Position numbers and translations under genes: made by a program
Notes under the pieces: model-generated
The model's input: the letters and a program-made list of their open reading frames with translations, nothing else
Told to the model about the DNA's origin: nothing
The model's database searches: none
NCBI GenBank assembly: GCA_004402915.1
Contig: SORU01000014.1
Location: forward strand, 1 to 37,451
DNA from: Fidelibacterota bacterium MT.SAG.2
Lineage (GTDB): Bacteria; Fidelibacterota; SORT01
DNA length: 37,451 nucleotides
Direction: 5' to 3'
Shown: piece by piece, positions 2,357-33,640 of the stretch
Numbering within the stretch: the first letter of the stretch is position 1
How the letters are laid out: each line of letters opens with the position of its first letter

Positions 2357-2389
2357 AAAAAAGACCTGTTCTGATACAGGTCTTTTTTT
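2357..2389 (+). terminator. intrinsic terminator after doxX-like gene
   Basis: Stem AAGACCTGT / ACAGGTCTT with a six-base loop, preceded by an A-run and followed by seven T. The A and T runs make it a plausible bidirectional terminator. Confidence 0.9.
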
Positions 2390-2483
2390 GTGCCCGGTCG
2401 AAGAAGAGTGCGACATTATCATTGCGATTATAGGAGTTTCGTGATATATTTTCGCGACAAAATTTAATTATAAAATACGAGGA

Positions 2484-2684: not shown

Positions 2685-2698
2685 AAAGCAGTGGAACT

Positions 2699-2866: not shown

Positions 2867-2928
2867 CTGTTGCTATTCGATGAATATATTCTAAATTTAA
2901 GGGTTAATGAGCAAGGAGGAAAATTAGC

Positions 2929-3267: not shown

Positions 3268-3305
3268 TAAAATAATTCAATACAGATCAGGTAATTCTAC
3301 TATTC

Positions 3306-3340
3306 AAACCCCTCGTTAGATGAGGGGGTTTTCTTTTTTT
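3306..3340 (+). terminator. intrinsic terminator
   Basis: Stem AACCCCTC / GAGGGGGTT (one bulged G) with a seven-base loop, followed by a long T-rich run. It ends the coiled-coil gene unit and isolates the sigma factor gene. Confidence 0.9.
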
Positions 3341-3440
3341 TACTACTGTCAGAAAACGGTATGAATATGGAACTTAACTCACCAATAGGCGTATTAAGTA
3401 ATGACCGGGTATAAATGCTTGTAAGATAAAAGAGGCAAAA

Positions 3441-4274: not shown

Positions 4275-4324
4275 TTCTAAGTCTTTTACTCTGAAAACAT
4301 TTCTCAAAATATAAAAGAAAATTC

Positions 4325-4354
4325 TTGACTATATATTCGTAAGTATTTTAATAT
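4325..4354 (+). promoter_or_regulatory. possible sigma-70 promoter
   Basis: TTGACT (4325-4330), 18 bases, then TAATAT (4349-4354), in an AT-rich gap behind rpoD. A hairpin-terminator lies only about 20 bases downstream (4376-4401), so if active the promoter would make a very short leader or be attenuated. Sequence match only. Confidence 0.3.
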
Positions 4355-4375
4355 ATAGAGACCTGATACAATTAC

Positions 4376-4401
4376 TGGGAAATTGGCTATTTCCCATTTT
4401 T
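4376..4401 (+). terminator. intrinsic terminator
   Basis: Stem TGGGAAAT / ATTTCCCA, loop TGGCT, followed by five T. It probably ends the rpoD transcript, or attenuates the 4325 promoter. Confidence 0.75.
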
Positions 4402-4450
4402 AAATTAAGAGTTTAATTCCGCCTATGAAAGTTTTGTAACCGGAGTATTG

Positions 4451-5392
4451 ATGAGAGATACGCAGTACCAAGTGGTCGTCATATCAGATGATGCCGCAGA
4501 TGTGCGTGAACTGAATACATCACGAGTGAACATTCTTCTTACAATTTTGCTCATTGTATTCACCTTACTCATGGGTCTTTATTTTACAGCTGATTTCCTC
4601 ACCGATGTTTTTTATGGAAAACGGCTTGCTACGCTTAGAAACCAGAATAAACAACTTGTAACCCGCATCAATGATATAAACAACAGAATTTCATCGCTTA
4701 CCGAGCAAATGATAGTTGTTAACCAAAAGGATCAGGCGATAAGAACATACGCAAATCTACCTTTGATAGATGCTGATATCCGTAAGGTTGGGGTTGGAGG
4801 TGTGTTGAACCCAAAAATTTCCAGCTTGGATTATTTGCTTCCCGCCTCCGATATTACCATAGCGGAAGTTGAATTTGACCTTGATGCAATAGAACGAGCG
4901 CTCAATTTAGAATTGACAAGTCTGGATGAAGTATATAACTCATTTAAAGCAAAGAAGGATATGCTTCAACATGTACCGACCATTCGACCGCTTCTTAGGG
5001 GTTATATCACGAGTGGTTTTGGTGAAAGAAGGGATCCCTTCACAGGAAATATGAGAGATCATCTCGGCATTGATATAGTTACGAAAAAGGGTGAACCTAT
5101 ATTTGCTACTGCAGACGGCGTTGTTTCAGATGCGCGTATGGATAGTCCGTCATTCGGTATCACGATTAAAATTGATCATGGTTACGGATACCAGACAAGA
5201 TATGCTCACCTCTCTAAACTTCTTGTGAGGAAACATCAAAAAATAATGAGAGGTCAAAAAATCGGCGAAGTGGGATCAACGGGAAGGTCGCAATCTCCGC
5301 ATCTGCACTATGAAGTTATTAAAAACGGAGTAAGAAAAGACCCAGCTCAAAAATATTTTTATCTGTCGGAGCAAGACCTGAGCCGCCTCTAA
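4451..5392 (+). CDS. M23 family metallopeptidase (cell-wall hydrolase)
   Basis: 313 residues. The N-terminus is cytoplasmic, one membrane helix spans about 27-47 (ILLTILLIVFTLLMGLYF), a helical stalk with glutamine/asparagine follows (about 60-100), and the LytM/M23 domain is at about 180-300. Zinc ligands are seen as the H and D of RDHLGIDIV and the HLH of SPHLHYEV, with the catalytic-side histidine in YAHLSKL. Such proteins cut peptidoglycan cross-links in the periplasm or activate amidases. The ATG at 4451 has CGGAG five bases upstream; a TTG sits immediately before it. Followed by a terminator. Confidence 0.85.
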   Translation: MRDTQYQVVVISDDAADVRELNTSRVNILLTILLIVFTLLMGLYFTADFLTDVFYGKRLATLRNQNKQLVTRINDINNRISSLTEQMIVVNQKDQAIRTYANLPLIDADIRKVGVGGVLNPKISSLDYLLPASDITIAEVEFDLDAIERALNLELTSLDEVYNSFKAKKDMLQHVPTIRPLLRGYITSGFGERRDPFTGNMRDHLGIDIVTKKGEPIFATADGVVSDARMDSPSFGITIKIDHGYGYQTRYAHLSKLLVRKHQKIMRGQKIGEVGSTGRSQSPHLHYEVIKNGVRKDPAQKYFYLSEQDLSRL

Positions 5393-5417
5393 AATAAAAT
5401 TCAATTTTGCTGTTTTC

Positions 5418-5439
5418 AACCGCTTAAAAGCGGTTTTTT
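5418..5439 (+). terminator. intrinsic terminator
   Basis: AACCGCTT / AAGCGGTT hairpin with a very short A-rich loop and a T-run, directly after the M23 peptidase gene. Confidence 0.85.
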
Positions 5440-5513
5440 ATTTTCTAATTGTCGGTCATAGTATTTTGCTTGCGAATCGGAAAGCATCTATCTAACTTAT
5501 ATGATTATGAATT

Positions 5514-6851
5514 TTGCAATTTAAGCTGAATAATTATTTGAAACAATTATATCATATAGAAACTTACGGTTGTCAGATGAATGTTTACGATTCGGAGCTG
5601 GTAGCGCGCATTCTTGATAACAAAGATATTTCTCCAACTGATTCGGCAGAAGCCGCAGATTATATATTTATAAATACCTGTTCGGTTCGCGATAAAGCAG
5701 AGCTGAAAGTGTTAAATCGTCTTAAACATTTAGAAGCCTTGAAAAAGAAAAATACATCTCTTGTGATCGGAGTGATCGGCTGCATGGCTCAAAATCTTAA
5801 AGAAGAGATCTTGGAAAATAAGCCGTTTGTAAATTTTGTGTTAGGTCCTGATTCTTACGGAAAATTATCGGCGCTTCTTGACGCAGAAAAACCATGGGAG
5901 GTCAAAGAGGTACATACCGATCTATCAAAGTATGAAACCTATGATTATATCTACCCGCTGAGAAATGGTGGTAACAGCGCAATGATTGCCATAATGCGTG
6001 GATGTGATAAAATGTGTACATTTTGTATTGTCCCCTTTACGAGAGGAAGGGAACGAAGTAAATCCGCGGAATCTGTGGTCAACGAGATTAAACAAGCAGT
6101 TGCCGAAGGGTTTCGTGAAGTTACGCTTTTGGGACAGAACGTAAATTCGTATGACGATGGAGATCTGAAATTTCCTGATCTCATGGAGAGAGTGGCTCAG
6201 ATCAAAGGAGTAAAAAGAATTCGCTTTACTTCGCCTCATCCTCAGGATGCATCGGATGAACTTATCGAAGTTATGCTGAAGTATGATAACATTTGCAATC
6301 ATATTCATCTACCGCTTCAATCCGGTTCTGATTCTATGCTCGAAAGGATGAATCGAAACTATACAAAAGAGGAATTCATATCCCTTGCGGAAAAATTCAA
6401 GAAAAGAATTCCCGGGATAGCTATATCAACTGACATAATCGTTGGTTTTTGCGGAGAAACTGAAGAGGAATTCTCTGATACGCTTGATGTGGTTCGACGC
6501 GTTAAATTCGACAGCGCCTTTATGTTCAAATATTCGGAGAGACCGCACACAGCCGCATTTAAAAGAATGCCTGATGATGTTCCCGAGGAGCTGAAGGGGG
6601 AACGGTTGACGCGGCTGATAGAACTACAAAAGATAAATGCGCTCGAAATCAATAAGAAGCTGGTAGGAAAGACTTTAGAAGTGCAGATAGAAAAAATAAG
6701 TAAAAAATCTGATGATCATTATATCGGAAGAACAGACAGCAATAAGCTTGTAGTTCTTCCCAAGAATGGTAAGGTTCCGGGTGATTTTCTAAAAGCATTA
6801 ATAACGGAAGCGGCAGGTATAACGCTATTCGGTGAACCTGTTTCACTGTAG
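5514..6851 (+). CDS. miaB: tRNA-2-methylthio-N6-dimethylallyladenosine synthase MiaB
   Basis: 445 residues, the usual length. This radical-SAM methylthiotransferase adds a methylthio group to i6A37 of tRNAs reading UNN codons. Cysteines of the auxiliary 4Fe-4S cluster are C20 (YGCQMN), C56 (NTCSVRDKA) and C90 (GCMAQ). The SAM cluster is C164, C168 and C171 (CDKMCTFC). GEN..SYDDG and TSPHP are typical MTTase motifs, and a TRAM RNA-binding domain covers about 380-445. The start is unclear: TTG 5514 has no good ribosome site and another TTG lies at 5538; both keep the first cysteine. It begins a run of close genes with lapA, lapB and the SPOR gene. Confidence 0.9.
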   Translation: MQFKLNNYLKQLYHIETYGCQMNVYDSELVARILDNKDISPTDSAEAADYIFINTCSVRDKAELKVLNRLKHLEALKKKNTSLVIGVIGCMAQNLKEEILENKPFVNFVLGPDSYGKLSALLDAEKPWEVKEVHTDLSKYETYDYIYPLRNGGNSAMIAIMRGCDKMCTFCIVPFTRGRERSKSAESVVNEIKQAVAEGFREVTLLGQNVNSYDDGDLKFPDLMERVAQIKGVKRIRFTSPHPQDASDELIEVMLKYDNICNHIHLPLQSGSDSMLERMNRNYTKEEFISLAEKFKKRIPGIAISTDIIVGFCGETEEEFSDTLDVVRRVKFDSAFMFKYSERPHTAAFKRMPDDVPEELKGERLTRLIELQKINALEINKKLVGKTLEVQIEKISKKSDDHYIGRTDSNKLVVLPKNGKVPGDFLKALITEAAGITLFGEPVSL

Positions 6852-6866
6852 ATATATGGAGGAAAG

Positions 6867-7262
6867 ATGCGTTTAATTTCATTGTTTTTCATAGTTATCA
6901 TAGTATTGATCATCATGTGGTTTCTGACTCAAAACGCAGACCAGGTTGTCAAAGAGCTGGAGATTTTCCAATATTCCTTCGAGGATGTAGATCTTATAAA
7001 AGTACTGTTCGGAACGTTCGCTTTTGGTGTTATAATGGGTTTTCTCATTCCGGTTTTTCAATATATCGGCGCTAAAGGAGAGGTTAGAAGATTTAAGAAG
7101 GAAGTAAAGAAACTCAGGTCGGAATTAAATGACTTGAGAAACGTCGGGATAGAGAGTGAGCTCGAAGTGGAAGAAGATCTGCTCGATGATAAAGAGGCAG
7201 AAGATGATTTGGCTGATGACTCTGCCGGGAGCGAAACAGAGGACGATAACAAGGCTCAGTGA
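6867..7262 (+). CDS. lapA: LapA-like (DUF1049) inner membrane protein
   Basis: 131 residues. Two membrane helices (about 4-19 and 48-67) flank a short loop containing NADQVVKELEIFQYSF, then a coiled coil (about 72-100) and a strongly acidic tail. This is the LapA/DUF1049 layout; in E. coli LapA partners LapB in lipopolysaccharide assembly control. The ATG follows TGGAGGAAAG, a strong ribosome site, 15 bases after miaB. The acidic C-terminal extension is longer than in E. coli LapA. Its stop overlaps the next start by four bases, so the pair is translationally coupled. Confidence 0.75.
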   Translation: MRLISLFFIVIIVLIIMWFLTQNADQVVKELEIFQYSFEDVDLIKVLFGTFAFGVIMGFLIPVFQYIGAKGEVRRFKKEVKKLRSELNDLRNVGIESELEVEEDLLDDKEAEDDLADDSAGSETEDDNKAQ

Positions 7263-8407
7263 TAGATTCAAAGCTCATATTTCAGCTGCTTATTCCGGTA
7301 ATTGTAGGGGGGATACTTCTATTTCTGTGGGTTTGGAGCGGAAAGCGGAAAAGACTTAAAAAAAGTCTTTCGTCGCCGTACACCGAGGCGCTGAGCGCTC
7401 TGATAAATGGCGATAAAATAAAGGCGATGAACAAGCTTCGAGAGGTAGTGAGAGACGACACGGACAATTTAGACGCCTATCTCAAGCTTGGGGATATTTA
7501 CCGTGAATACGGAAAAAATGTTCAAGCGCTCAGAGTTCATCAATCACTTACCGTACGGACTGGCTTGACAAATTATCAAAATATAAGTATTTGGAAAAGC
7601 CTGCTGCAAGACCATCGACTTCTCAGGGAATGGGACAAAGCTATCAAGTACTCTGAAATGATAACGGAACTTGACAGGAACAATATGTGGGCGAGAAAAG
7701 AGCTTTTGGAGATTTATAAGGAGAAGGGAGACTGGGACGGAGCGGTAGAAGCGGCTAAAAGCATTCAGAAACAGGAAAAGAAAAAGGACGTTGAGACTCT
7801 TGCCCTCTATCAGATCCAACAAGGATTGGAATATAGGAAAAAAGGCGAAGAAAGGGATGCCCGGATTCTATTTAAAAAAGCGTTGAAAACTTCAAATAAG
7901 TGCGCAGCAGCTCATTATTTTATCGGTGTATCATATTTGAGCGAGGGTCGCAAGAAGGATGCGGTCGAATCATGGCGGAAATTCGTTAAAACGGATCCCA
8001 AACATGCGTACTTGGTGTTTGACGAACTGGAAGAAGTGTTATATGATCTCGGCAATTTTGACCAGAGTGAAAGGATCTACCAGGAGATATTGGATTTGGA
8101 TTCAGGAAATGTCAGCGCCTTGGTAGCTCTATCCGATCTGAATGAAAGAAAGGGAAATCGGGAAGAATCAATTCGTATGCTTCGCAAAGCAATTGAAAAG
8201 GACAGCTCTTCTCTCCGAGCTAAAGCTTACCTGATACAAATGTTGTTAGGTCCGGATGTAAGCGATGAAATAAAAGAGAATCTCCAATCGTTGATTCAAA
8301 GTACCAGACGGCCGAGAAAATTTGATTGCCGGAACTGTGGATACCACAGCGATAAACCTCTATGGGTCTGCCCGGATTGTTTGAATGAAAATACATTTCT
8401 TGACTAA
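7259..8407 (+). CDS. lapB: LapB/YciM-like TPR protein with rubredoxin-type zinc ribbon
   Basis: 382 residues, close to the 389 of E. coli LapB. One N-terminal membrane helix (about 5-24), TPR repeats through about 35-330, and a C-terminal rubredoxin-like metal site with CRNCGYHS and WVCPDC. LapB regulates FtsH-dependent LpxC turnover and recruits LPS assembly factors at the inner membrane. The order lapA-lapB is the same as in enterobacteria. The GTG start overlaps the lapA stop (GTGA). The target of regulation here is inference from the family. Confidence 0.8.
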   Translation: MIDSKLIFQLLIPVIVGGILLFLWVWSGKRKRLKKSLSSPYTEALSALINGDKIKAMNKLREVVRDDTDNLDAYLKLGDIYREYGKNVQALRVHQSLTVRTGLTNYQNISIWKSLLQDHRLLREWDKAIKYSEMITELDRNNMWARKELLEIYKEKGDWDGAVEAAKSIQKQEKKKDVETLALYQIQQGLEYRKKGEERDARILFKKALKTSNKCAAAHYFIGVSYLSEGRKKDAVESWRKFVKTDPKHAYLVFDELEEVLYDLGNFDQSERIYQEILDLDSGNVSALVALSDLNERKGNREESIRMLRKAIEKDSSSLRAKAYLIQMLLGPDVSDEIKENLQSLIQSTRRPRKFDCRNCGYHSDKPLWVCPDCLNENTFLD

Positions 8408-9197
8408 ACTGATTTTGAGGATCAAAAGTCTCCTCTTCCTTCTGACTTTATTTATAATTGTATCCGAAGCTGCTGCGCAATCAAATATCGAGTCGTTCGT
8501 GAAAGAGGGGAAGTTTTCTGAGGCACGCGAACTTCTTCCCGCTTTGGTGAAGGAAAATCCCGCCGATGCCAGAACTATCTATTTTCAAGGTTTGTTAGAA
8601 AAAAACGGTGAGACTTCCCTTGAATATTTCGAGTCGCTTCTCTCAAAATATCCTAAGAGCGAGTACGCCGATGACGCTCTGATGCAGATAAGCGAGTATA
8701 GGTACTCCCGCGGTCTTTATATCAGCGCCGAACGGACACTGTTGATGATACCACGCAAATATCCTGAATCTGAGCATATCGAACGGGCGATCAATCTTCT
8801 TATGCAGGCTATGCTCGTAACGGGAAAAGCCGATACGGCAAAAATGTATTTAGACGTCTTCAAGAAAAAATGGAAAAACTTAGATGTAGAACTTCCGGAA
8901 AGTGTATTAGCGAAATTAGAGGAGCCGGCAGAGTTATCAGATTCCCGCAGGAACGAGGAGTATACTATTCAGATCGGAGCATTCGGGTCTAAAAAGAATG
9001 CCGAAAGGCAAAGAGATGTGTTCAAAGGACGCGGATTCAAGGTCTCTCTCGGTAAGAAGAAAGTGGCGGATAAACGGCTTCACTTAGTCTGGGTCGGGTC
9101 ATACAGTTCTTATGACGACGCTCTTGCCGAAGCCCGTGTATTGAAGGCAAAGTTCGGCGTGAACTACGGTATTGTGGACAGAACAAAAAACAAATAG
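8385..9197 (+). CDS. exported TPR protein with C-terminal SPOR domain
   Basis: 270 residues. A basic, hydrophobic N-terminus (about 1-31, ending SEAAAQ) looks like a signal peptide. Helical repeats of TPR/BamD-like type follow (FSEARELLPALVKENP, YPKSEYADDALMQISEYRYSRG). Residues about 193-266 form a SPOR domain (YTIQIGAFGSKKNAERQRDVFKGRGF ... HLVWVGSYSSYDDALAEARVLK), which binds denuded peptidoglycan glycan strands at septa. The start lies inside the lapB end (23-base overlap), indicating co-transcription. A role in division-site or envelope maintenance is inferred. Confidence 0.8.
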   Translation: MKIHFLTKLILRIKSLLFLLTLFIIVSEAAAQSNIESFVKEGKFSEARELLPALVKENPADARTIYFQGLLEKNGETSLEYFESLLSKYPKSEYADDALMQISEYRYSRGLYISAERTLLMIPRKYPESEHIERAINLLMQAMLVTGKADTAKMYLDVFKKKWKNLDVELPESVLAKLEEPAELSDSRRNEEYTIQIGAFGSKKNAERQRDVFKGRGFKVSLGKKKVADKRLHLVWVGSYSSYDDALAEARVLKAKFGVNYGIVDRTKNK

Positions 9198-9203
9198 TTA
9201 TTT

Positions 9204-9295
9204 GGGAGTGGATGTGACCCTGGTGGGCGCCACGGTCTTCAAAACCGTTGGGACGAAGCAATTCGTCCGCTAGATTCGATTTCTAGACACTTCCG
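9204..9295 (+). tRNA. selC: tRNA-Sec (anticodon TCA)
   Basis: A 92-base tRNA of selenocysteine type. The acceptor stem is GGGAGTG pairing with CACTTCC. The anticodon stem ACGGT / ACCGT encloses loop CTTCAAA with anticodon TCA at 9239-9241. The long variable arm is a perfect 7-bp stem GGACGAA / TTCGTCC with loop GCAA (9250-9267). The T arm is CTAGA / TCTAG with loop TTCGATT. The discriminator is G and CCA is not fully encoded. The gene implies a SelA/SelB selenoprotein pathway elsewhere in the genome. An integrase lies 72 bases downstream, so the 3' part of this gene is the likely attachment site. Confidence 0.92.
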
Positions 9296-9300
9296 CAAGG

Positions 9301-9367: not shown

Positions 9368-10495
9368 TCACTCTTTGTTTGCCTTTTGGTCTCCATTAGT
9401 CTGGTTTGGTCTGTATTTTGGCACCAATATGGCACCACTTTTTTCTATTTCAAACTCAACAGAAGTTTGACCAAGTAGAAGAGCTATGTCCTCATATTCG
9501 CTGTTCAATAGATCAACATAATGTCGCTCTGTGACAGCGACTGTTGAGTGACCAAGCCACTTACTAACACGATATATATCTACTCCCTTCTGGATAAGAA
9601 GAGAGCCACATGTTTTTCTTAATGTGTGTACATTAGCATTTTCTATGTGAGCTAATTTATAATACTTTTTAATCCTTCCTGATACTTGATACCCTGAGAA
9701 AGTAAATGGGTGGGAGAAGGATTTACGCCTTTTTAAAATCTCTTCGAGAAGATTATTCAAAGGCAGTGTACGTCTTTTATTTCGTTTTCCTGTTATTACA
9801 ATCAATTTGCGAGTGAGATTAACATTATTCCAAGTGAATTTTGGAGGCAGTATTTCCGATCTACGTGCTCCAGTCTGAAGGTAAAAGGTCACGAGATCTC
9901 TTGCGTCGATATCATTCGCTTCATTGATTACATAATACAAAGATTTGATTTCACTTGGAGATAGGAATCTCACAGGCTTTTCCATTATTTTGGGAATCAA
10001 TACGCCTACAAATGGAGATCGTACTAAATATCTCATCCTTACAGCCCAATTGAACATAGCTTTCTGATGTTTAAGTTCCGCAATTAACCCCGCTAGAGTG
10101 AGTTTAGTTCCCCTGGGTGTAACTTCAGTTAATCGAATTTGTTTATAATTTTCTAAAGTTACCTCAGTGATATCTGTAATAAGGATTTTCGCACCGATTA
10201 TCCGTTGAAGAGCATCGGTAGCATTTTTAATGCGTGTAACGGTTAGGGGAGATTTACCATCTGTTTCAGATACCATTAAATATTTCATTATGAGGTCTTT
10301 TAAGGGCATATATCGTTCACCAGTTGACAGGCCCCTCTTTCTCTTCTCAATTTCACTAAGAATTAAACCCAATTGTGTTTCGGCTACTGATTTAGAACAA
10401 TAGATACGCTTTCGGCATCGTTTGCTATTTTCGTCAACGTAATCGAGAGTCCACGCTGGTTGGCGTTTAGATCTTAAATCTTTTCGAATGGCCAT
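9368..10495 (-). CDS. tyrosine recombinase (site-specific integrase)
   Basis: 375 residues from ATG 10495; a GTG three codons upstream overlaps the Shine-Dalgarno and is less likely. The ribosome site is a perfect AAGGAGGTGA. An N-terminal core-binding domain (about 60-170) precedes the catalytic domain. Active-site residues are R211 (TGARRSE), the beta-hairpin lysine in GKRNKRR, H290 and R293 (HTLRKTCGS), H316 (WLGHS) and nucleophile Y326 (RHYVDL). It would integrate or excise the element at the selC 3' end. The gene points towards the tRNA, as in many selC- and other tRNA-borne islands. Confidence 0.93.
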   Translation of the reverse strand: MAIRKDLRSKRQPAWTLDYVDENSKRCRKRIYCSKSVAETQLGLILSEIEKRKRGLSTGERYMPLKDLIMKYLMVSETDGKSPLTVTRIKNATDALQRIIGAKILITDITEVTLENYKQIRLTEVTPRGTKLTLAGLIAELKHQKAMFNWAVRMRYLVRSPFVGVLIPKIMEKPVRFLSPSEIKSLYYVINEANDIDARDLVTFYLQTGARRSEILPPKFTWNNVNLTRKLIVITGKRNKRRTLPLNNLLEEILKRRKSFSHPFTFSGYQVSGRIKKYYKLAHIENANVHTLRKTCGSLLIQKGVDIYRVSKWLGHSTVAVTERHYVDLLNSEYEDIALLLGQTSVEFEIEKSGAILVPKYRPNQTNGDQKANKE

Positions 10496-10516
10496 TATAA
10501 TCACCTCCTTTCATGA

Positions 10517-20972: not shown

Positions 20973-23900
20973 ATGAGAAATCTTTTAGTTTTTCTTTCAT
21001 TTTTATTTTGGTTATCAGATGCATTGGCTCAGCTTGGTGTCAACACCGCCTTGAACCTTGTATGGCACGAAGCGTCTGATGTCGTCTTTTCGCGGGGTTA
21101 CGTAGTATTAGCCGGCATTGACATCGACCAGGACGGCAAGGGCGAGATATTGACTTATGACCCTGACGGGGGTAAGAAAATCGTGTATCTCTTCGAGTCT
21201 TCAGGAGACAATAACTACGATATCATCTGGCAGTATCAATTTTCCGACGATTTTACCAGTATATCCGGCTCTACGCCTGGGATCATGGTGACGGATATAG
21301 ACAATGATGGATTTCAGGAGATAGTTGTCATCGTTGGTTCTGAAAATCCCGATTCCACAAATGGTTTAGATGCGGGTCATATATTCGAATGGGACGGAAC
21401 TGACAACGGCTTGCCTAACTTCCCGACGGCGACGTTTGATCCACCCAGGGACGCTCTTGACCAGGTCAGATTGGGATATACTTCCACGGCATTGGATTTG
21501 GACAACGACGGCAATATCGAGCTTGTTCTGCCGTATTTCGGCGGTAACGGTAAGTTGCTGTCTATCATACAGCTCACTTCATCTGACTTGTCCGTTGGAG
21601 TTACGATGACCGTCGAGTTTGATGAAAATTTTGCCCCGATAGATACAACTCATTTCCTGGCGAGGAACATAGGAGGATTCGGTATAACCGACATCGACCT
21701 TGACGGCTTGAACGAGGTCATTATGTTTAATTTTGACAATAACACGGGCTTTGTTCGTGTGTATGAAGGCACAGGTCCAAATGCGTATGCTTTTGTGAGA
21801 GAGTGGCAGCCGAACCCGATAGGATGGGTTACGGATGCCCACGTAACCTACGTAAGAAGCCTGATAATGGAAGCGGATTTTGACGAGGACGGTGTTTTTG
21901 AGCTCTACCTTTCCGATACGAAGGGTAACTCGTGGATTATAACCCCCGGCGGGGATGTTGCCACGATGTTCGACGACGTTAACTGGACCAAACTTCACGA
22001 CTGGAAGATTTCCAACCTTTTCGTTGAGGACGGCAACATTCACGGTGGCATTATAGGCGACGTAGACTTCGACAACAAGCCGGACATCTATTTTGCCGGT
22101 AACACCTTCGGCTCGATTCTGGACATAGAGTATGACGGCGGCGATGTGACTGACGGGGATAATTACAGTTATTATGTCACGGCGATAGATTCCAACAATG
22201 ATGTTGATGGTGGTCATTTTGCCCGTCCATCCAACATTGCTCTGAGTGATATGGACGATGATGGACTTTTTGAGGTCGTGGTGATTGTTCCATTCACGGG
22301 TGGCGACCCTGTAACCAACTTGTCGGGATTGTACGTATTTGAACACGAAGGTTTAGATTCAGTTCCAATTTCTGTAATTATCGCAGAAAACGAATGGTTT
22401 GATATTGATAGAGATGGCTATGCCGATGGTCTGCTTGATGGCACTGAGAGCTACAATACAGGTGGTTTAGAAATCATCTCTTATATTTGGACGATTAACG
22501 ATTCGGTTCTTGGGACGGCGGCTCAGATTACAGCCTCATTACCTACTGGAACAAATCAGGTGAATTTGACTGTAACAGATACAAACGGATTGTCAAATAT
22601 TGCAACGAAAAGCATCAGCGTTGTCCTCGGTGAACTACCAACTCCGGTCATAACTGCTGCATCAGAGTGGCAAGACATAACTGGAGACGGATTCGCTCAA
22701 GGTACTCTTGACGCTTCGAACAGCACTCATCCTGCGGGTTTCACTATAACAGGATATGAATGGACGCTGAATGATTCAACACTTGGGACGGCGGCTCAGA
22801 TTACAGCCTCATTACCTACTGGAACAAATCAGGTGAATTTGACTGTAACAGATACAAACGGATTGTCAAATATTGCAACGAAAAGTATCAGCGTTGTCCT
22901 CGGTGAACTACCAACTCCGGTCATAACAGCAGAATCACTATGGCTAGATATTACAAGAGACGGATTTGTTCAGGGCACTCTTAATGCTTCAAACAGTATT
23001 CATCCTGCGGGTTATGCAATTACAGGTTTCGAATGGAGACGTAATGGAATTACCATCGGAAGTGAGAGTATTATTAACACTTTTTTGCCGACTGGTACGA
23101 ATACAGTTTATCTAATTGTTACCGATGAGAACGGATTAATCGATTCAACATCAAAAAATATCAACGTTCACGCACAGAAAATACAGACAGCTGGGCCCAT
23201 ATCCTCAGCGGTCAGTAGTATCGGCGATAGCCTATTCTTTGCAAGTTCAGCGGATGACAAGATATATAACTTCGATACCGATGGAATAGTGCGATGGTTC
23301 TTGAAGGTTGGAGGGGATATACAATCAACTACCACGATCGGACCGAATAATCGAATCTATGTCGGTTCTTCAGATACCCGTCTTTACGCATTTAACCTGA
23401 ATGGAAATTTTGAGTGGGATATCTCAATGGGGGGTATTGTGACTGCCTCTCCTGCTATCACATCAGGTGATATACTGTATGTAGGAGTAGATAACGGCAG
23501 ACTTTTTTCCCTTAATGGTTCAGATGGTTCAATTAATTGGAATTATCTTACTGCTGGACCCATTAATTCTTCTGCTTCTGTTGGAACTGATGGAATAATA
23601 TATGTAGGAAGCGATGGAGGTCTAATGTATGCCATTAATCCAGATGGTAGCCTCAGGTGGAGTTTTATTACAAATGAGCCAGTCCGATCTTCGCCAGCAT
23701 TGGATTTGAGCGGCAATATATACTTTGGAAGTGATGATAAGAACTTCTACTCGTTGGATAGTGATGGAAACGAGAACTGGCGATTCTCAACGGGTGGTAC
23801 TATCCAGTCTTCTCCAGTTATTAGCGGTGATGGTACTGTTTATTTTGGGTCTACGGATAGCCTTGTTTACGCAATCTCAGCGTCAGGTGAGTTTGTTTGG

Positions 23901-24748: not shown

Positions 24749-24780
24749 ATTGGCTATATAAGTGTCCTTTTATATCCAAT
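24749..24780. repeat. imperfect palindromic repeat, copy A
   Basis: ATTGGCTATATAAG, a short loop, then CTTTTATATCCAAT. Similar to copy B at 28194-28225, with paired changes in the two arms. The surrounding 24590-25041 has no credible gene; no other feature was recognised there apart from TCTGGTTCA (24876) and its inverse TGAACCAGA (24992). Confidence 0.7.
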
Positions 24781-25041
24781 ATTAAGATGAGATATATCAT
24801 AAGATCATGAATATAGAAAATCTTGGATTTTTATAGAAATTAGGTTATGTTTATTTGAATTTGCTAATGTTCATCTGGTTCAAGGAATTTAGAGGAGTTA
24901 AAATCATCCGTTTAATTAAATTTGAGATATAGTGAAGTACAAAAAATGGATGGTCGCAATATCTGATAACTGATAAAGAATAATATCTCTGAACCAGAAG
25001 AGTTATAACTTCCTCGAATGTGATAACTGGGTAACAACAGA

Positions 25042-25069
25042 ATTTCTGATAATGGTTTTTATGCGAATT
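25042..25069 (+). other. dif-like XerC/XerD recombination site 1
   Basis: Left arm ATTTCTGATAA, centre TGGTTT, right arm TTATGCGAATT: the 11-6-11 layout of dif. The arms form the usual imperfect inverted repeat (..GATAA / TTATGCGAA). 58 bases upstream of the SH3-protein gene; same orientation as sites 2 and 3. Confidence 0.6.
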
Positions 25070-25126
25070 TGAGTATTAGTTACTGGGATAACTGAAAACG
25101 CAGCCGGAAAGGAAGGAGGGAGTGAT

Positions 25127-26149
25127 ATGAGAATAAGAGGTTTAGTTTTAGTTTCTTCATTATTTATCAGTAGCAATATTATTTCTGCGCAAGATTTTGC
25201 ATTCATCTTGCCGTCGATCGTCAATATAAGAAGCGGTCCTGGAATGAACTTTGAAGTTGTAACTCAGCTGAGACAGGGAACAATAAAATCGATCACCTCA
25301 AAATCTGGAAATTGGATAGAATTAAATTTGGGTTCGAAGTCAGGTTACGTAAGTAAACGAATCGTATTCAGTACAAGTACAGACAATATCGCAAATGAAT
25401 TTAAAGAGCAACATGAAGTAAATAATTTTAATGGCTACCAATACAAACTGAAACGGGTTAACTATAAAAAAGATGTACCAATATTTATTGCCGTTTATCC
25501 TACGACATTACCGCGAGACGATGATATAATTCTCAGTCAAATGGTTAATCATATATCAAAGGTCTGGGGAATTAATAATATATATACCGGATCAGCATAT
25601 ATTCAGAAACAAGCCGGTACTAATTTAATCGTATTTGATAAAGAGTCAAAAAAGTACTATTTTTTGTTAATCAAGGATGAAATTTCAGCGAGAACGGGAG
25701 TTCTTGTATTCTGGTGTAAAGATTCAAACTGGAATCTTGTTCATTCCAAGGGCAAATATCACGGGAGGAATAAGCATACTCAAACATCGTTAAAATCTAA
25801 TACATCTGCCTCGAATAATAAAATTTATACACTAGGGCGCAAAACCCAAACCTTGGATTCGGATAAAAGGATAGAACAGTACATGAATACTAAATATAGT
25901 CAATTTGGTGTAATATCTGTTGATGCTGTCGGTACATATATGAAACTAAATGTTAATACCACTCTCTACTCCGGATTCATGGTAGGACCCGCAGACACAA
26001 AATTTATTCTCACGGAAATGATTAACCAAATTAAAAGGTTTACGCTAAAAAATAATGCTAAAATTGATGTATTCTATCTTAGTTCAAAGGTGATCACGGC
26101 TGAATCCAGATCAGGGCGTTCAGAAATTGACATTATTTATCATGATTAA
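25127..26149 (+). CDS. exported protein with bacterial SH3 domain
   Basis: 340 residues. Signal peptide about 1-22 (LVLVSSLFISSNIISAQ). A bacterial SH3 (SH3_3) domain is at about 25-85: VNIRSGPGMNFEVVTQLRQGT ... WIELNLGSKSGYVSKRIV. Such domains often bind peptidoglycan. The remaining 240 residues (two alpha/beta stretches, VPIFIAVYPTTLPRDDD and FVGPAD/KFILTEMINQI-like) match nothing I know. The ribosome site GGAGGG is strong. The gene is the only one between dif-like sites 1 and 2, so it looks like a Xer-mobilised module. Confidence 0.65.
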   Translation: MRIRGLVLVSSLFISSNIISAQDFAFILPSIVNIRSGPGMNFEVVTQLRQGTIKSITSKSGNWIELNLGSKSGYVSKRIVFSTSTDNIANEFKEQHEVNNFNGYQYKLKRVNYKKDVPIFIAVYPTTLPRDDDIILSQMVNHISKVWGINNIYTGSAYIQKQAGTNLIVFDKESKKYYFLLIKDEISARTGVLVFWCKDSNWNLVHSKGKYHGRNKHTQTSLKSNTSASNNKIYTLGRKTQTLDSDKRIEQYMNTKYSQFGVISVDAVGTYMKLNVNTTLYSGFMVGPADTKFILTEMINQIKRFTLKNNAKIDVFYLSSKVITAESRSGRSEIDIIYHD

Positions 26150-26249
26150 GTCCAAAGGAAGAAAATACAGTAACGGTACATGTGTTTGCTTGTTGATTTA
26201 CGATTCGATTTTGCAAGTAATGAAAATTAGCTCGCCCGGCTATATCCGT

Positions 26250-26277
26250 ATTTCCGATAATAGTTTTTATACGAAAA
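26250..26277 (+). other. dif-like XerC/XerD recombination site 2
   Basis: Left arm ATTTCCGATAA, centre TAGTTT, right arm TTATACGAAAA. It lies 101 bases after the SH3 gene and 103 bases before the DUF6119 gene, in the same orientation as site 1. Confidence 0.6.
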
Positions 26278-26379
26278 GGTATTCAATAATCATTTGAAAT
26301 ATAAGTTCCTCGGAGCTAGAGTTAGGCAATGAACTAAAGATTTAGAGTATCAAAATGATAATAATTAGGTGAAGAAAGT

Positions 26380-27996
26380 ATGAGCACGAAAAAGTCCGAA
26401 ATACGAATCCAAAGATTGCGCGTAAGATTATTCAAAACATCCGTAAAAGCATTTGAAGAAACATTAAAAGATTCTGTTGAATTGACAAAATACGATCTTT
26501 TAGGCAACTTGGGCTTCGATGGAACACTCTTCATATCGAAGCCAACGCAAGGCACGCCAGCTTGGCTTCAATTTATGCAATCTGGAACACAAAACACGAT
26601 CGAAGTGCTAAGCAACCAGTCTAATTCAGCGGTTCTCTTAGTTAAAATTGATGAGAACATATATGGTATAGCTTTTGGACATGGTCGACATTTACTTAAA
26701 GAAGAATTACTTGTACAGGATTTTGGAATAAAAGTTTCATTGAATGGTATTGAGCCGGCTAGTATGCGTAGTATTGATACTTTCACAATAGAAGAGCAGA
26801 CTGTGCATAAGCGTACTCAATCTAGTCGAGCAAGTGGAATAGAGATTTTTGGATTAGATATATCTCGCGATATTGTTAGAGCAATTACTGGAATTCCAAA
26901 AAATTATTTGAGGTTTGAGTCATTGGCAGGAAGTGATGCAACGGTTGCAGTATCTGCCAGAATGGAATTCTCAAGTATTGAGAAGGTATGCAAGAAATTG
27001 AACAGACTTTATAAAGGTACGAGCTATCAGAGCAATTTTGCTTGGGTTGATCATATTAAAAAAGTGAAAGAATCATCTAAAATTAAAGAATTAGATAAGA
27101 AATTAATTGATGATATTAACGATGATAATCCTACATCGTACCTTGCTCCTCCTGAACCAATTAATTGGGTAGATTTTAATTATTTTTCATTTACCCAAAA
27201 AGGTAAAAATCAAATCTTTGATCTTAATCTAGCGTCTTATCGGCAGAATCTAAAGTCAAAGACAGTAGATACTGAAAAAATTAAGAGAGATCATGCTTAT
27301 CTGTTTTCAAGTGGATTGAATGAGGCTATTATAAGTTGGTCAATCTATAATTGCTTGACTTATGAGGTAATCGAAGGTAGTTCACGCTTCGTCTTTACCA
27401 AAAGTACTTGGTTTGAGATTGAAAAGTCCTTTGCTGAAAAAATTAATAATCAAGCGAGTAAGATTGAGAAAATCGACTTGAAGTTTCCACAAATAGAGAT
27501 CGATAAAGAAGGTAAAATTGAGCGAGAGGATGAATATAATATTAGAGCGGCAAAATCCCAAAAGGGCATTGCTCTCATGGATAAAAAGTTAGCGAAATGC
27601 GAATCAACTTCGACTTACATCGAAATTTGTGATCTCATGAGTGAAGATCAAATGATTATTCATGTAAAAAAGAAGAAAGGCGGATCTTCGGGGTTAAGCC
27701 ATTTATTTGCGCAGGGTAGAATATCAGGAGAAGCGCTCCTTAATGATAAAGCATTTAGAAAAAAGGCCAAGTTACATCTTGGTTCACTGAGTAAGGATTA
27801 TGCTAAAAGGATTCCAGAAGATGGGTTTATTTCAAACAAATATAAAATAGTTTATGTGATTCTTGGAGTTGACCCTGCAACTGTAGTAGAAGACCTACCA
27901 TTCTTTAGTCTTCTAAATCTGGTAGGAGCTAAACAATTTCTTACCTCAATCGGGTACCAGGTGGCCATAGCCGGTATAAGTGTCAAAGAATCTTAG
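26380..27996 (+). CDS. DUF6119 / TIGR04141 family protein, probable defence gene
   Basis: 538 residues. TIGR04141 (DUF6119) proteins are sporadically distributed and found in defence islands next to restriction systems; their activity is not established. Typical features are the N-terminal LRVRLFKTSVKAFEETLK, the GIAFGHGRHLLKEE segment, FGIKVSLN, SLAGSDATVAVSARMEFSSIEKVCKKL, and the late CDLMSEDQMIIHVKKKKGGSSGLSHLFAQGRISGEAL, which resembles a degenerate nuclease-like core (IHVKKK). No signal peptide. Flanked by dif-like sites 2 and 3, so it forms a one-gene module. A role in anti-phage defence is inferred from family and context. Confidence 0.75.
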   Translation: MSTKKSEIRIQRLRVRLFKTSVKAFEETLKDSVELTKYDLLGNLGFDGTLFISKPTQGTPAWLQFMQSGTQNTIEVLSNQSNSAVLLVKIDENIYGIAFGHGRHLLKEELLVQDFGIKVSLNGIEPASMRSIDTFTIEEQTVHKRTQSSRASGIEIFGLDISRDIVRAITGIPKNYLRFESLAGSDATVAVSARMEFSSIEKVCKKLNRLYKGTSYQSNFAWVDHIKKVKESSKIKELDKKLIDDINDDNPTSYLAPPEPINWVDFNYFSFTQKGKNQIFDLNLASYRQNLKSKTVDTEKIKRDHAYLFSSGLNEAIISWSIYNCLTYEVIEGSSRFVFTKSTWFEIEKSFAEKINNQASKIEKIDLKFPQIEIDKEGKIEREDEYNIRAAKSQKGIALMDKKLAKCESTSTYIEICDLMSEDQMIIHVKKKKGGSSGLSHLFAQGRISGEALLNDKAFRKKAKLHLGSLSKDYAKRIPEDGFISNKYKIVYVILGVDPATVVEDLPFFSLLNLVGAKQFLTSIGYQVAIAGISVKES

Positions 27997-28056
27997 GGGA
28001 TACATAATATCCGTAATGGATTGAATAGTTCAAATGAATTTTAGTATATGGGAATG

Positions 28057-28084
28057 TGTTCTGATAATGGATTTTATGCGAAAC
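28057..28084 (+). other. dif-like XerC/XerD recombination site 3
   Basis: Left arm TGTTCTGATAA, centre TGGATT, right arm TTATGCGAAAC. It lies 60 bases after the DUF6119 stop, same orientation as sites 1 and 2. No gene follows until 28515; the gap also holds palindromic repeat B and an integrase relic. Confidence 0.55.
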
Positions 28085-28193: not shown

Positions 28194-28225
28194 ATTGGCT
28201 ATATTAGTGCCCTAATGTATCCAAT
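28194..28225. repeat. imperfect palindromic repeat, copy B
   Basis: ATTGGCTATATTAG, loop TGCC, CTAATGTATCCAAT. Relative to copy A the changes in the left arm (A to T) are matched in the right arm (T to A), which supports a conserved stem-loop. The flanking AAT...ATAAGAT is shared too. Confidence 0.7.
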
Positions 28226-28232
28226 ATAAGAT

Positions 28233-28514: not shown

Positions 28515-29009
28515 ATGAAAATTGAAAAAATTCAAATATCAAATTTCAGGCTATTGCACTCATTTTCTCTAGATGTAGAAGATAATTTATCATTGGTTAT
28601 TGGAAAAAATAATACGGGGAAAACATCATTTTTAGCTCTATTAAACAGATTTCTAAAAGAAACGGGTAATACTTTTTCGATTGATGATTTTAGTATTCAA
28701 TCCCAGGAAAATCTACAAAAGATCGTTGAAGATGACAAAATTTTAGAGGACGAATTATTTTCTCTCTCCTTAAAATTAATAATATCCTATGAAGATCATG
28801 ATAATTTAATCAATATTTCTGATTTTCTTCTTAATCTTTCCCCAACTGAAAATAAGATAATTCTTTCGTTTAAATACGGATTAGACAAAGAAAATTTAAA
28901 AAGATTAAAAAGTGACTTTAAAGAATATAACAAGGAATTTAAAGAGAAAAATGTATTAGACTTTTTAAAGCATAATCAGATTCATAGAACCTACTTTAAG
29001 ACTTATAAA
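28515..29009 (+). pseudogene. Gabija GajA-like OLD-family nuclease, 5' part (cut by IS)
   Basis: Codons 1-165 of an ATP-dependent OLD-family nuclease. The N-terminus KIEKIQISNFRLLHSFSL and Walker A GKNNTGKTS (about 31-38) are typical of the SMC/RecF-like ATPase of OLD proteins. The gene is split by an IS3-family element at 29010. Fusing codon 165 (AAA, 29007-29009) to CGT at 30327, with one TAAA target copy removed, restores an unbroken frame of 667 residues. With the UvrD-like helicase directly downstream this is the GajA-GajB arrangement (class 2 OLD). GajA is somewhat shorter (about 580), so a related OLD-helicase system is possible. As it stands the product is truncated after the insertion (stop at 29028-29030). 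Confidence 0.8.
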
Positions 29010-29081
29010 TGGAGTGCACCCCTTGCGTGAGACACTTTCTTGGTTATTTTAGACACACCAAAACCGGGAGGGTATCACACG

Positions 29082-29414
29082 ATGACAGGAAGTCGACGTA
29101 GGTATGGGAGTTCTTTTAAGATTGACGTAGTTCGTAAAGTCGAGAGTGGGCTATCTGCGGCCCGAGTTGCTCGCAGATATCAACTTAGTCCTCATTTGGT
29201 ATATAAATGGCTTCGTCTGTACAGAGAGAACCCTGAAAAAGCTTTTAAGAGTGGTGGATCCGGGGAGTTTGAGAATTTGGATGCAGAAGCCCGTATTGCC
29301 GAGTTAGAGCGAAAGGTCGGAAGTTTGACCATGGAGAATGGGTTCCTAAAAAAAGTCTTAAGACGGTTAGAGAGCAATGGGGGAGCAAAGATCCCAATGG
29401 ATGGAGAGAGATGA
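29082..29414 (+). CDS. IS3-family transposase OrfA
   Basis: 110 residues from ATG 29082 (GGGAGGG upstream); the longer reading from 29040 starts in the terminal repeat. HTH_Tnp_1 domain: RRYGSSFKIDVVRKVESG, then SAARVARRYQLSPHLVYKWLRLYRE, followed by a leucine-zipper-like helix (IAELERKVGSLTMENGFLKKVL). It binds the IS ends. It overlaps orfB by four bases (ATGA). Confidence 0.9.
   Translation: MTGSRRRYGSSFKIDVVRKVESGLSAARVARRYQLSPHLVYKWLRLYRENPEKAFKSGGSGEFENLDAEARIAELERKVGSLTMENGFLKKVLRRLESNGGAKIPMDGER
29348..29355 (+). promoter_or_regulatory. programmed -1 frameshift signal A7G
   Basis: AAAAAAAG inside orfA. The orfB frame is -1 relative to orfA and open from here to the orfB ATG at 29411, so slippage gives the OrfAB fusion transposase, as usual in IS3-family elements. 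Confidence 0.7.
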
Positions 29415-30310
29415 TCTATACACTGATCGCACAACATTCTGTAGGACTCCCCAAAGGGGCTTTGTGTGAAATCACAGAAGTCAGCCGTAGCGGTCTTTAC
29501 CGGTTTCTATCAAGCGTTAAGGAAAAGGTCGATTCAATTGAAGCGAAACTAATTGAACATATTGAACATATCTGTGTAGATATGCCGGGATACGGGTATC
29601 GGAGAGTGACAAAGGCATTACAACGAATGGGATACCGAATAAATCACAAGCGTGTACTCAGACTTATGCGCAGTAACGACCTGTTATGTAAGCGTAAAAG
29701 GGGTTCTGTACGAACGACTGATTCCCGGCACCATCTTGGTATCTATCCCAACTTGGCTAAAGAAATAAAGCCCACCGCTCCGGATCAGTTGTGGGTTGCG
29801 GATATAACGTATATCAGACTTCCCAAAGCATTCGTATATCTGGGGGTGATAATGGATCAGTTCACTCGCCGTATAGTCGGATGGTCGCTTGGAAGGGATA
29901 TTGATACGAGGTTAAGCATTAGCGCGCTTAGGATGGCATTGAGAAACCGTTCTATCAAACCGGGTTTGATCCATCACTCCGACAGAGGAGTGCAATATGC
30001 TGCAGGTAAATATATAGAGATGTTGAAGCAGCATGGAATAATTGTTAGTATGTCGCGAAAGGGTAATCCCTATGATAATGCCACTATCGAGTCATTTATC
30101 AAGACATTGAAATACGAGGAGGTCCTGCTGAATGAATATGAATCCTTTGAGGAGGCGTACGATTATATTGCTTACTACATCAATGAGGTTTACAATAAGA
30201 GGCGGTTGCACTCAGCATTGGGATATAACTCGCCTGTTGAATTTGAAAATGCATTCGAGGAAAGAAGATTAGAAATGTCCTTAAAACAGGAAGAAAGTGT
30301 CCCAGTTTAG
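29411..30310 (+). CDS. IS3-family transposase OrfB (DDE integrase core)
   Basis: 299 residues. N-terminal HTH_21 (IEHICVDMPGYGYRRVTKAL, then INHKRVLRLMR) followed by the rve core with the DDE triad: D in WVADITYI, D in HHSDRGVQYAA, and E in YDNATIESFIKTLKYE. It ends RLHSALGYNSPVEFE, typical of IS3 transposases. Apparently intact and active-looking. Confidence 0.93.
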   Translation: MIYTLIAQHSVGLPKGALCEITEVSRSGLYRFLSSVKEKVDSIEAKLIEHIEHICVDMPGYGYRRVTKALQRMGYRINHKRVLRLMRSNDLLCKRKRGSVRTTDSRHHLGIYPNLAKEIKPTAPDQLWVADITYIRLPKAFVYLGVIMDQFTRRIVGWSLGRDIDTRLSISALRMALRNRSIKPGLIHHSDRGVQYAAGKYIEMLKQHGIIVSMSRKGNPYDNATIESFIKTLKYEEVLLNEYESFEEAYDYIAYYINEVYNKRRLHSALGYNSPVEFENAFEERRLEMSLKQEESVPV

Positions 30311-30326
30311 GGGTTCACTCCATAAA

Positions 30327-31835
30327 CGTAGTTTAGAATACAAGAATGAAGAAAATTTCAAAGATATTGAGCAGAATCAACTAAATAAAATTATTAAGTT
30401 CGAATCCATTAGCGCTAAAAGAGATGTAGCTAATGTAGATGAAGATAGTGCACTTTCTAAATTATCTTATAAATTTTTTAAATCTACTAAATCTTCAAAA
30501 GAAACAGATATTACTGATTTGCAAAGAAAATTAATTAAAACTGACTCTGATTTAAATAAAACATATGAAACAATATTTAAAGATATTATAGACAATGTAA
30601 AAAAATTCAGCTATTCTGAGAAAGAATCACAGCTTTCTGTTCTATCTAAGTTAGAAGAGCTTAATGTTTTAAAAGAAAACACTTCTGTCGTCTATGAACA
30701 AGAAGGACATTTTTTACCGGAAGAACTTAATGGATTGGGATATATGAATCTTTTTGCGATGATATTTAACATACATATAATAATGGATTTGTTTAAAACA
30801 AAAAATCTCGAATCTAAAAGACCAGCTGACATAAACTTGTTATTTATCGAAGAGCCGGAGGCCCATACGCACCCTCAAATGCAGTATGTATTTATTAAAA
30901 ATATTAAGAATCTATTGCAAGAAGAAGGAAAGGATTTAAATAATCTTCAAACGATAATCAGTACGCATTCAGCTCATATAACATCGCAATGCGATTTCAA
31001 TGATATAAAGTACTTTTTAAGGGAAAATTCAAATATAATAGTTAAAAACATATCTGAACTACAAAAAAAATATGAGGATAGAGATTCTGATAAATCAATA
31101 TTTCAATTCTTAAAACAATATTTAACCTTGAATAGAGCTGAGCTATTTTTCTCTGAAAAATTGATACTAATTGAAGGTGATACTGAAAGAATTTTAATCC
31201 CTGCAATGATGAAAAAAATAGACTTAGAGAACAAAGATGTAAAAGAATACACTCCTCTTTTATCTCAGAATATATCAGTCACGGAAGTCGGAGCATATTC
31301 ACATATCTTTGATCAATTTATCGACTTTTTACAGATTAAAACTATGATTATAACTGACATTGACTCAGTAGAACCCGCTGTAAATGGAAAAGCATGTCCT
31401 GTTTCCAAAGGCACTCACACAAGCAACGCCTCTATTCGATATTTTACAAATGATAAGTCTTTAAATGAATTAATAAAATTAGATTTTAAAGATAAAATCT
31501 TTCTATTGAAGGATAACAAATGGGAGTCCCATAAAGATGGAAATCTGTGTATCACATATCAAACAGAAGAAAACGAATATCACGCGAGAAGTTTTGAAGA
31601 CGCTTTTATTTCGTTAAACTTAGAATATATAAAGTCAAATAAAGACAGCTTCAAAAGCTTAAAAAACCGTGAAGTTTTAGAGGCTACATCTCCTGATTAC
31701 TATGAGATTGCAAAAAATTGTATAGGGAAAAAATCTATTTTCGCAACTGATATATTATATTACAGTAATAGTGAGTTTAGTGATTGGGATATCCCTAAAT
31801 ATATCAAGGATAGTTTGCTATGGCTAGCGGAGTAA
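30327..31835 (+). pseudogene. Gabija GajA-like OLD-family nuclease, 3' part (cut by IS)
   Basis: 502 codons in frame with 28515-29009 once the IS is removed. ATPase C-lobe: LNGLGYMNLFAMIF (signature-like) and Walker B LLFIEEPEAHTHPQMQ, then STHSAHITSQ. TOPRIM nuclease domain: LILIEGDTERILI (catalytic glutamate) and IITDIDSVEP (DxD). The frame now runs back into the IS right end to a GTG at 30297 (MSQFRGSLHKRSL...), so the C-terminal part might still be made, without Walker A. The stop lies inside the helicase gene (16-base overlap), showing the two were an operon. Confidence 0.8.
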
Positions 31836-33640
31836 TAGAAAAAATAAAAAGCCATATCAATAATGGCGAAAATTTTCTATTAAGTGGCGGCGCCGGAAGT
31901 GGTAAAACCTTTACGCTAATGGAGGTATTAGAATTTGTACATTCCACCGATCCAAGCGCCAATATAGCATGCATTACTTATACGAATGCTGCGGTAGATG
32001 TAATCAAAGATAGAAGACCATATAAAAATATTAAGACTTCCACAATTCACGATTTTCTATGGGATATCATCAAAAATTATCAGAATGATCTAAAAATTTC
32101 CCTTTTAGCCTTACTTAGGAAAGAAAAAGAAAAGGAAAACACTGGCATAAAATATTTTGGAGATCAAAATTTAAATTCAGAATTATATCAGCACCAGGAA
32201 ATAAAATATAAGGAATATAAAAAATTAGAAGAAGGTATAATATCACACAATGAAGTTTTAAAAATTACAAGCTATATGTTCGAAACTTATCCTTTATTAT
32301 GTGAAATACTAATTGATAAGTACGATTACATATTGATAGATGAATACCAAGATGCTGAGGAACAGGTAATTAAGATTTTTCTTAACTATATCAATAAAAT
32401 AGAGCATAAAACAAATATTATTGGAACCTTTGGTGATTCAATGCAATCAATTTATAATAATGGTATTGGCAATTTAAATTCCTACATAGAAGACGGCACA
32501 ATTAAGGAAGTTATAATAGAAGATAATTGGCGTTGTTCCACTGAGGTCATAAAATTACTAAATAATATTAGAACAGATATTACTCAAAAACCAAAACCAG
32601 AAGGAAAGGCAGATAGTGGAAGTATTAACTTTGTATTCTCATATGCTGAAGATGTAGATATTGAATCATTAAAAAACAATGAAGATTTATTCAATGATTG
32701 GGATTTTACAGATTATAATGAAACAAAAGAATTATACCTAACCCACAAGTTAATTGCGTTGGATGCAGGTTTTGGTGAAATATTTGATGTCTATAGCAAA
32801 GATGAAATTATTAAACAAGTATCTAAAATCAAAACATATATGAAGAATCATCTGGAAGAAAAGACAAAAATTGAAAATAAAACCTTTGGTGAAGTCTTAA
32901 ATTTAAATTTAGTTAATGCTGCTAACAATTTCAAAAATTTTATAAAATTAAATCCAGAATTGTTTGATTATGCAAAAAATATTCCATTTGAAAATCTTTC
33001 TAAAATTTATTTAAATAGTGACAAATTATTTGGTGATGATAAAGACGCATTAATTAATCATCTATTTAAAATACAAGAAGTTATCCATCTGTATGAAAAA
33101 AACGATGTCAACAGTTTCATTAGAAAAACTGAGTATAAAATTAAATCTGTTCAAGATAAAATTGACTTAAAAAAATCAATTGAAGATCTAAAGGAAATGA
33201 GAGATAAAACAATTTTAGATATAATCGCGTTTGCTCATGATTCTAGGTTAGTAATTAAAGACGATAATTTTAATTCTTTTCAAGCAGAAAACGAATATAC
33301 ATTTCATAAAGTCAAAGATCTTATATATGAGCAGCTAATAAATCTTTACAATTTTGAGCAAGATTTAACTCCTTACTCAACACAGCATGGAATTAAAGGA
33401 GAAGAATTTAATAATGTTTTTGTGATTTTAGATAATGGCGGATGGAATAATTATAATTTTAAATATTTGTTTGAAGACACACCAGAGAAAGAAAGCATTA
33501 TTGAAAGAACAAAAAAAATGTTTTATGTTTGTTGTTCACGAGCAAAAGAGAATTTGGTAGTTTTTTATTATAATCCAACACCGGAAGTATTATCAAAAGC
33601 AGAATTTTTGTTTGGAGGAGAAAATATGGTAGAAGTATAG
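31820..33640 (+). CDS. UvrD/Rep-like SF1A helicase, GajB-like
   Basis: 606 residues. Walker A GGAGSGKT (23-30), motif Ia ACITYTNAAVDVIK, Walker B ILIDEYQDAEE, motif III GTFGDSMQSIYN, motif IV region EDNWRCS, then HGIKGEEFNNVFVI and motif VI FYVCCSRAKENLVV. The pairing with an upstream OLD nuclease is the Gabija architecture, where GajB helicase/ATPase activates the GajA nuclease on DNA ends. It is longer than the best-known GajB (about 490), through an extra helical insert at about 290-480. Probably still translated although its partner is broken; expression may now depend on the IS. Confidence 0.85.
   Translation: MASGVIEKIKSHINNGENFLLSGGAGSGKTFTLMEVLEFVHSTDPSANIACITYTNAAVDVIKDRRPYKNIKTSTIHDFLWDIIKNYQNDLKISLLALLRKEKEKENTGIKYFGDQNLNSELYQHQEIKYKEYKKLEEGIISHNEVLKITSYMFETYPLLCEILIDKYDYILIDEYQDAEEQVIKIFLNYINKIEHKTNIIGTFGDSMQSIYNNGIGNLNSYIEDGTIKEVIIEDNWRCSTEVIKLLNNIRTDITQKPKPEGKADSGSINFVFSYAEDVDIESLKNNEDLFNDWDFTDYNETKELYLTHKLIALDAGFGEIFDVYSKDEIIKQVSKIKTYMKNHLEEKTKIENKTFGEVLNLNLVNAANNFKNFIKLNPELFDYAKNIPFENLSKIYLNSDKLFGDDKDALINHLFKIQEVIHLYEKNDVNSFIRKTEYKIKSVQDKIDLKKSIEDLKEMRDKTILDIIAFAHDSRLVIKDDNFNSFQAENEYTFHKVKDLIYEQLINLYNFEQDLTPYSTQHGIKGEEFNNVFVILDNGGWNNYNFKYLFEDTPEKESIIERTKKMFYVCCSRAKENLVVFYYNPTPEVLSKAEFLFGGENMVEV

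Follow-up and report, generated by a model that had tools for sequence, protein, structure and literature searches.

Modules bounded by Xer-type sites are, in the literature that we searched, described only for Acinetobacter, where they spread resistance genes. In these dif modules the XerD arm reads TTATGTTAAAT, and the orientation of C and D modules must alternate (PMC13141974). Chromosomal islands of dif modules have already been reported (PMC12907356), and the modules seemingly move by replicon fusion and not by excision of circles (PMC11705084).

Here we analyze a 37,451-nucleotide stretch of DNA (the window) that forms contig 14 of genome G000 (family f1), a MAG of 67% completeness from Ca. 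Neomarinimicrobiota, an uncultured, largely marine phylum distant from Acinetobacter. Three dif-like sites in the window delimit two one-gene modules. Together with related arrays in other genomes of the phylum, they share several traits with the Acinetobacter modules, namely 28-bp sites with an 11-6-11 layout and a variable spacer, an XerC-type arm of the ATTTCG[CT]ATAA type, and arrays of one- or few-gene modules that hold accessory cargo and need no recombinase inside the module. The two systems nevertheless differ in the right arm, which is TTATCAGAAAT and not TTATGTTAAAT, leaving the XerD motif TTATGT(TAAAT) without a match, and in orientation, which is direct throughout as opposed to alternating; furthermore, the array sites do not track the host dif. 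A chromosomal, defence-gene version in this phylum would be new according to the preliminary description of this locus. For Marinimicrobia, a limited literature search found no paper describing such arrays; chromosomal modules as such are already known from the Acinetobacter islands.

Sites, cargo genes and defence island of the window

The preliminary description had placed the sites at 25042, 26250 and 28057, and their coordinates, arms, centres and shared orientation proved to be as stated there (Table 1). All are 28 bp long, and reading them on the minus strand puts the XerC-type arm (TTCGCATAA) first. When the window was scanned with a site consensus drawn mainly from the sites of relatives, allowing up to 3 mismatches, the matches were exactly these three sites, and 100 dinucleotide shuffles of the window gave a mean of 0.01 matches. 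Under a matrix built from other genomes, the runner-up position in the window reached 4.8 bits, leaving a gap of more than 26 bits to the sites, and the highest score over 60 simulated windows was 17.7 bits. Three such sites in the window are not expected by chance. The rest of the window genome, at only 67% completeness, yielded no further convincing copy.

Table 1. Features of the window and arrays of dif-like sites (positions refer to the window; spacings in bp)
Feature	Position	Strand	Description	Score or spacing
dif-like site 1	25042..25069	-	minus strand AATTCGCATAA AAACCA TTATCAGAAAT	34.8 bits, matrix trained without the window
dif-like site 2	26250..26277	-	minus strand TTTTCGTATAA AAACTA TTATCGGAAAT	31.3 bits, same matrix trained without the window
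dif-like site 3	28057..28084	-	minus strand GTTTCGCATAA AATCCA TTATCAGAACA	34.6 bits, matrix trained without the window
Module 1 cargo gene	25127..26149	+	secreted-looking 340-aa protein, bacterial SH3 domain	Pfam SH3_3 7e-9
Module 2 cargo gene	26380..27996	+	538-aa DUF6119 / TIGR04141 'sporadically distributed' protein	Pfam 5e-144, NCBIfam 5e-139
tRNA-Sec	9204-9296		start of the defence island	
Tyrosine integrase	9368-10504		adjoins tRNA-Sec	
Direct duplication	22488-23037		277 bp, within a T9SS/beta-propeller protein gene	87% identical
Palindromic repeat, two copies	24749-24782, 28194-28227		ATTGGCTATAT...TATCCAAT, 32-35 bp, one on each side of the array, same orientation	
gajA	28515-31835		Gabija pair; interrupted	
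gajB	31820-33640		Gabija pair; apparently intact	
Array G000 (window)			3 sites	1208, 1807
Array G020 C28			4 sites	3558, 3558, 4626
Array G240 C159			4 sites, one weak	1666, 4382, 5482
Array G044 C162			2 sites	4952
Array G051 C13			2 sites	5668

Between the sites lie the SH3-protein gene and the DUF6119 gene named in the preliminary description, each now backed by a domain match. Module 1 has a GC content of 0.35, compared to 0.41 in bases 1-9200 of the window. The DUF6119 gene is present in 1 of the 245 genomes of the phylum; a short-peptide scan found no relatives of its protein in GTDB genomes, and the sole relatives found, at no more than 36% identity, reside on proteobacterial plasmids and one phage.

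The array sits inside a low-GC defence island, which starts at tRNA-Sec with an adjoining tyrosine integrase and also contains a Gabija pair and a methylase region. This setting would suit an explanation by integrative elements (phages, IMEX) with a single target, in which the sites would be their attachment scars and the intervening genes what is left of them; IMEX-type elements use dif. The array sites do have an Xer-type core in common with chromosomal dif and with the elements that use it (IMEX, CTX-type phages). Unlike all of these, however, they number several in a genome and lie apart from its one host dif, and the array modules contain ordinary genes and neither phage genes nor an intact integrase. 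One array even repeats a module in tandem (3558 + 3558 bp, G020), and the integrases found near arrays adjoin tRNA genes or fragments (tRNA-Sec in the window, tRNA fragments in G240). We consider such scars quite improbable. No repeat of the tRNA-Sec end was found within the window.

Several further features of the island were observed. An IS3-type transposase (rve domain) interrupts gajA between the parts of its ATPase domain. The palindromic repeat that flanks the array is dispersed in 5 of 5 family f1 genomes and absent from the others among the 245; it is usually co-directional with genes, often with a terminator-like hairpin after it, and on contig C15 of genome G003 two copies flank a single gene. 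The copies at 24749 and 28194 were considered as the outer boundary of the array and rejected because this repeat is scattered between genes across family f1.

A site family with homology breaks at its edges

In a first pattern search of 60 relatives, a single 15-kb contig of G020 proved to carry four sites of the same orientation, and G044 had two sites. Pattern and sequence-model searches across the phylum then delimited a site family with arms TTTCGCATAA and TTATCAGAAA and a variable centre, amounting to about 23 good sites in about 9 of 245 genomes and four families: G000 (f1); G020, G044, G238, G239, G240 and G052 (f3); G051 (f17); and G221 (f18). Two sites were left out of this count, one at the 3' end of a recombinase remnant in G004 and one within an ORF in G232. 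Arrays thus recur in relatives, where the preliminary description had suggested looking, with unrelated genes between their sites. Fifteen sites fall on five array contigs (Table 1), and within each array only one orientation is seen, an outcome with a chance of about 1 in 1000 under random orientation.

Scanning 84,980 species gave 24 matching stretches, 9 of them from Neomarinimicrobiota. The other 15 are single sites that we judged to be chance matches, three from Bacteroidota sharing one conserved stretch, and the two matches in viral contigs are likewise chance-like. Separately, an identical 23-mer, TCGTATAATATGAATTATCCCAA, was noted in four genomes of three families (G067, G034, G163 and G200).

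The preliminary description had also raised the prospect that the 28-mer is a widespread promoter or regulator site. Operators, promoters or terminators with a chance likeness to dif could account for imperfect palindromes near gene ends, several of them 7-25 bp past a stop codon. Such an explanation is at odds with the small number of copies in the phylum, and with their placement, which is mostly intergenic, includes convergent gaps and takes both orientations relative to transcription. Nor does it agree with arms that stay constant around a variable centre, or with flank homology that ends at the site on either side. A regulatory role was already disfavoured on these grounds and appears very improbable.

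The ends of homology were traced by comparing 600-bp flanks across all sites. Six site pairs have a long similarity on one side only that stops at the site edge. In G020, sites 1 and 2 are similar on the right side alone, and pairs 2/3, 2/4 and 3/4 on the left side alone, with similarity ending at +26 to +38; the left flanks of sites 3 and 4 are 84% identical along 178 bp, a similarity that ends within the site. Similarly, G044:245 and G052:7587 have only the left side in common (454 bp, ending at +29), and G051 C69:6726 and C13:2063 only the right side (194 bp, starting at +3). Dozens of site pairs from different genomes align across the 28 bp with nothing alongside, as in G238 and G239, which have a stretch identical at 27 of 27 bases at the site and are unrelated in their flanks. 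One exception does not fit: homology between G239 C6 and C107 ends 76 bp before the site. Crossovers inside a site leave such breaks behind, and we read them as the footprint of site-specific recombination, which neither a promoter nor a terminator would produce.

The cargo of the arrays is accessory and mixed, and not defence only. The defence-gene character named in the preliminary description is only partly borne out. The module between two sites of G051 C13 (L090:2388-7403) holds LmuB-like, ABC-3C MC3 and CTD7/Cap4-nuclease genes and a frameshifted integron integrase, which adjoins a Lamassu-like operon. DUF6119 is without known function, and the cargo of family f3 is mostly secreted proteins with T9SS sorting tails.

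Host dif and candidate recombinases

Canonical dif patterns found no host dif in families f1 and f3, and the host dif of both families was recovered only by a sequence model. In the single-contig genome G018, dif lies at position 1,395,008 of 2,788,509 bp, halfway round. The host dif of the window genome is ACGACGCATAA CATATA TTATGTATAGT; G001 and G002 have an identical dif and G004 a nearly identical one. Family f3 has a dif with an unusual XerC arm (..GTTAA TATATA TTATGTCGAGT), conserved and present once per genome (L206-L216), and the dif sequences of families f17 and f18 are ATTTCGCATAA TAGATA TTATGTCTTTA and ATTGCGTATAA TATATA TTATGTTAAGT, respectively. The window genome and its relatives therefore have a dif separate from the array sites, which are not the single-copy chromosomal dif.

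Comparing the two kinds of site bears directly on the resemblance, drawn in the preliminary description, to the pdif modules of Acinetobacter plasmids, where XerC/XerD shuffle single genes. The array sites could be degenerate dif sites worked by host XerC/XerD exactly as pdif modules are, moving mostly by replicon fusion and resolution. The 11-6-11 layout and the ATAA/TTAT inner arm ends are consistent with this, as is the left arm, a good XerC-type arm with up to 11 of 11 bases identical to the f17 dif. Near-complete carrier genomes encode two Xer proteins each, and the unusual palindromicity of the array sites is also seen in Acinetobacter (PMC11705084). However, the right arm is not XerD-like, with 4 to 8 of 11 bases matching; TTATGT occurs in every dif found and in 0 of 20 array sites, read in either direction; and no array site matches the dif of its own genome at more than 14 of 22 arm bases. 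The array site is moreover unchanged across families with differing dif, including f3 with its quite different XerC arm, and the arrays are direct and not alternating. The preliminary description is thus partly supported, in the dif shape, the shared orientation and the recombination footprint of the sites, and we regard the action of plain host XerC/XerD as rather unlikely. On these comparisons, the array sites appear to share the plan of dif without being copies of the host dif.

A site that stays constant while the host dif varies is more simply read as belonging to a recombinase that would travel independently of the host Xer pair. We therefore somewhat favour a dedicated or non-canonical tyrosine recombinase acting in trans over the host XerC/XerD, and infer more broadly that a tyrosine recombinase, either dedicated or an unorthodox Xer, is behind the sites. 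No recombinase maps to the arrays. The integrases on contig C175 of G240 were rejected as the array recombinase because they adjoin tRNA fragments. Xer proteins are missing from the window genome, probably because the bin is incomplete.

Arrays of small modules placed head to tail in one orientation between recombination sites are also a trait of integron cassettes. An integron whose IntI uses a simplified site would be in keeping with the true IntI genes of G239, G240, G052 and G051 and with the frameshifted IntI between two G051 sites. Against it, G020, G044, G238, G221 and the window genome yielded no IntI, and a radius of about 1.5 kb around the intact IntI genes examined is free of dif-like sites. 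The short dif-like site is itself unlike integron cassettes, as is the lack of an attC-like hairpin family: in a crude pattern scan for attC (RYYYAAC...GTTRRRY), the window and the G020 contig each gave a single match, palindromic and chance-like, and the other array contigs gave none. No intI with attI was found beside the arrays, apart from the frameshifted intI in one G051 module. This makes an integron extremely improbable.

A candidate gene-cassette system

Taken together, the sites are likely to be core sites of a tyrosine recombinase that links small gene modules together and detaches them again in Neomarinimicrobiota chromosomes. A module would consist of a single gene or a few, together with one site. 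The recombinase is proposed to bind both 11-bp arms, which form imperfect inverted repeats, with strand exchange taking place in the 6-bp centre. Two direct-repeat sites that recombine may then release the module between them as a circle, and a circle that recombines with a site may be inserted there. Insertion of circles at sites would make modules pile up head to tail, every site pointing the same way.

We count in favour of such cassettes the site family, the direct-repeat arrays, the unrelated cargo, a DUF6119 gene unique in the phylum, the XerC-type arm and the variable centre. Counted against them are that neither circles nor empty sites were seen, that paralogous T9SS genes supply the bulk of the f3 evidence, and that the centres of adjacent window sites differ by 1-2 bases, a mismatch that would slow a standard tyrosine recombinase. 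The arrays resemble a gene-cassette system that is related to the Acinetobacter dif modules yet differs both from them and from integrons. More tentatively, and with more doubt than confidence, we suggest that they may represent a third kind of bacterial gene cassette, with direct-repeat dif-like arrays served by a dedicated tyrosine recombinase in trans, independent of the host dif, and carrying defence and accessory genes in some Neomarinimicrobiota families and T9SS-secreted proteins in another.

A version in so distant a phylum, with a site independent of the host dif and integron-like direct orientation, would imply that dif-like cassette systems arose or spread more than once. It also makes it testable whether an Xer-type site can be served by its own recombinase, and such cassettes would give these uncultured bacteria a route to swap defence and surface-protein genes.
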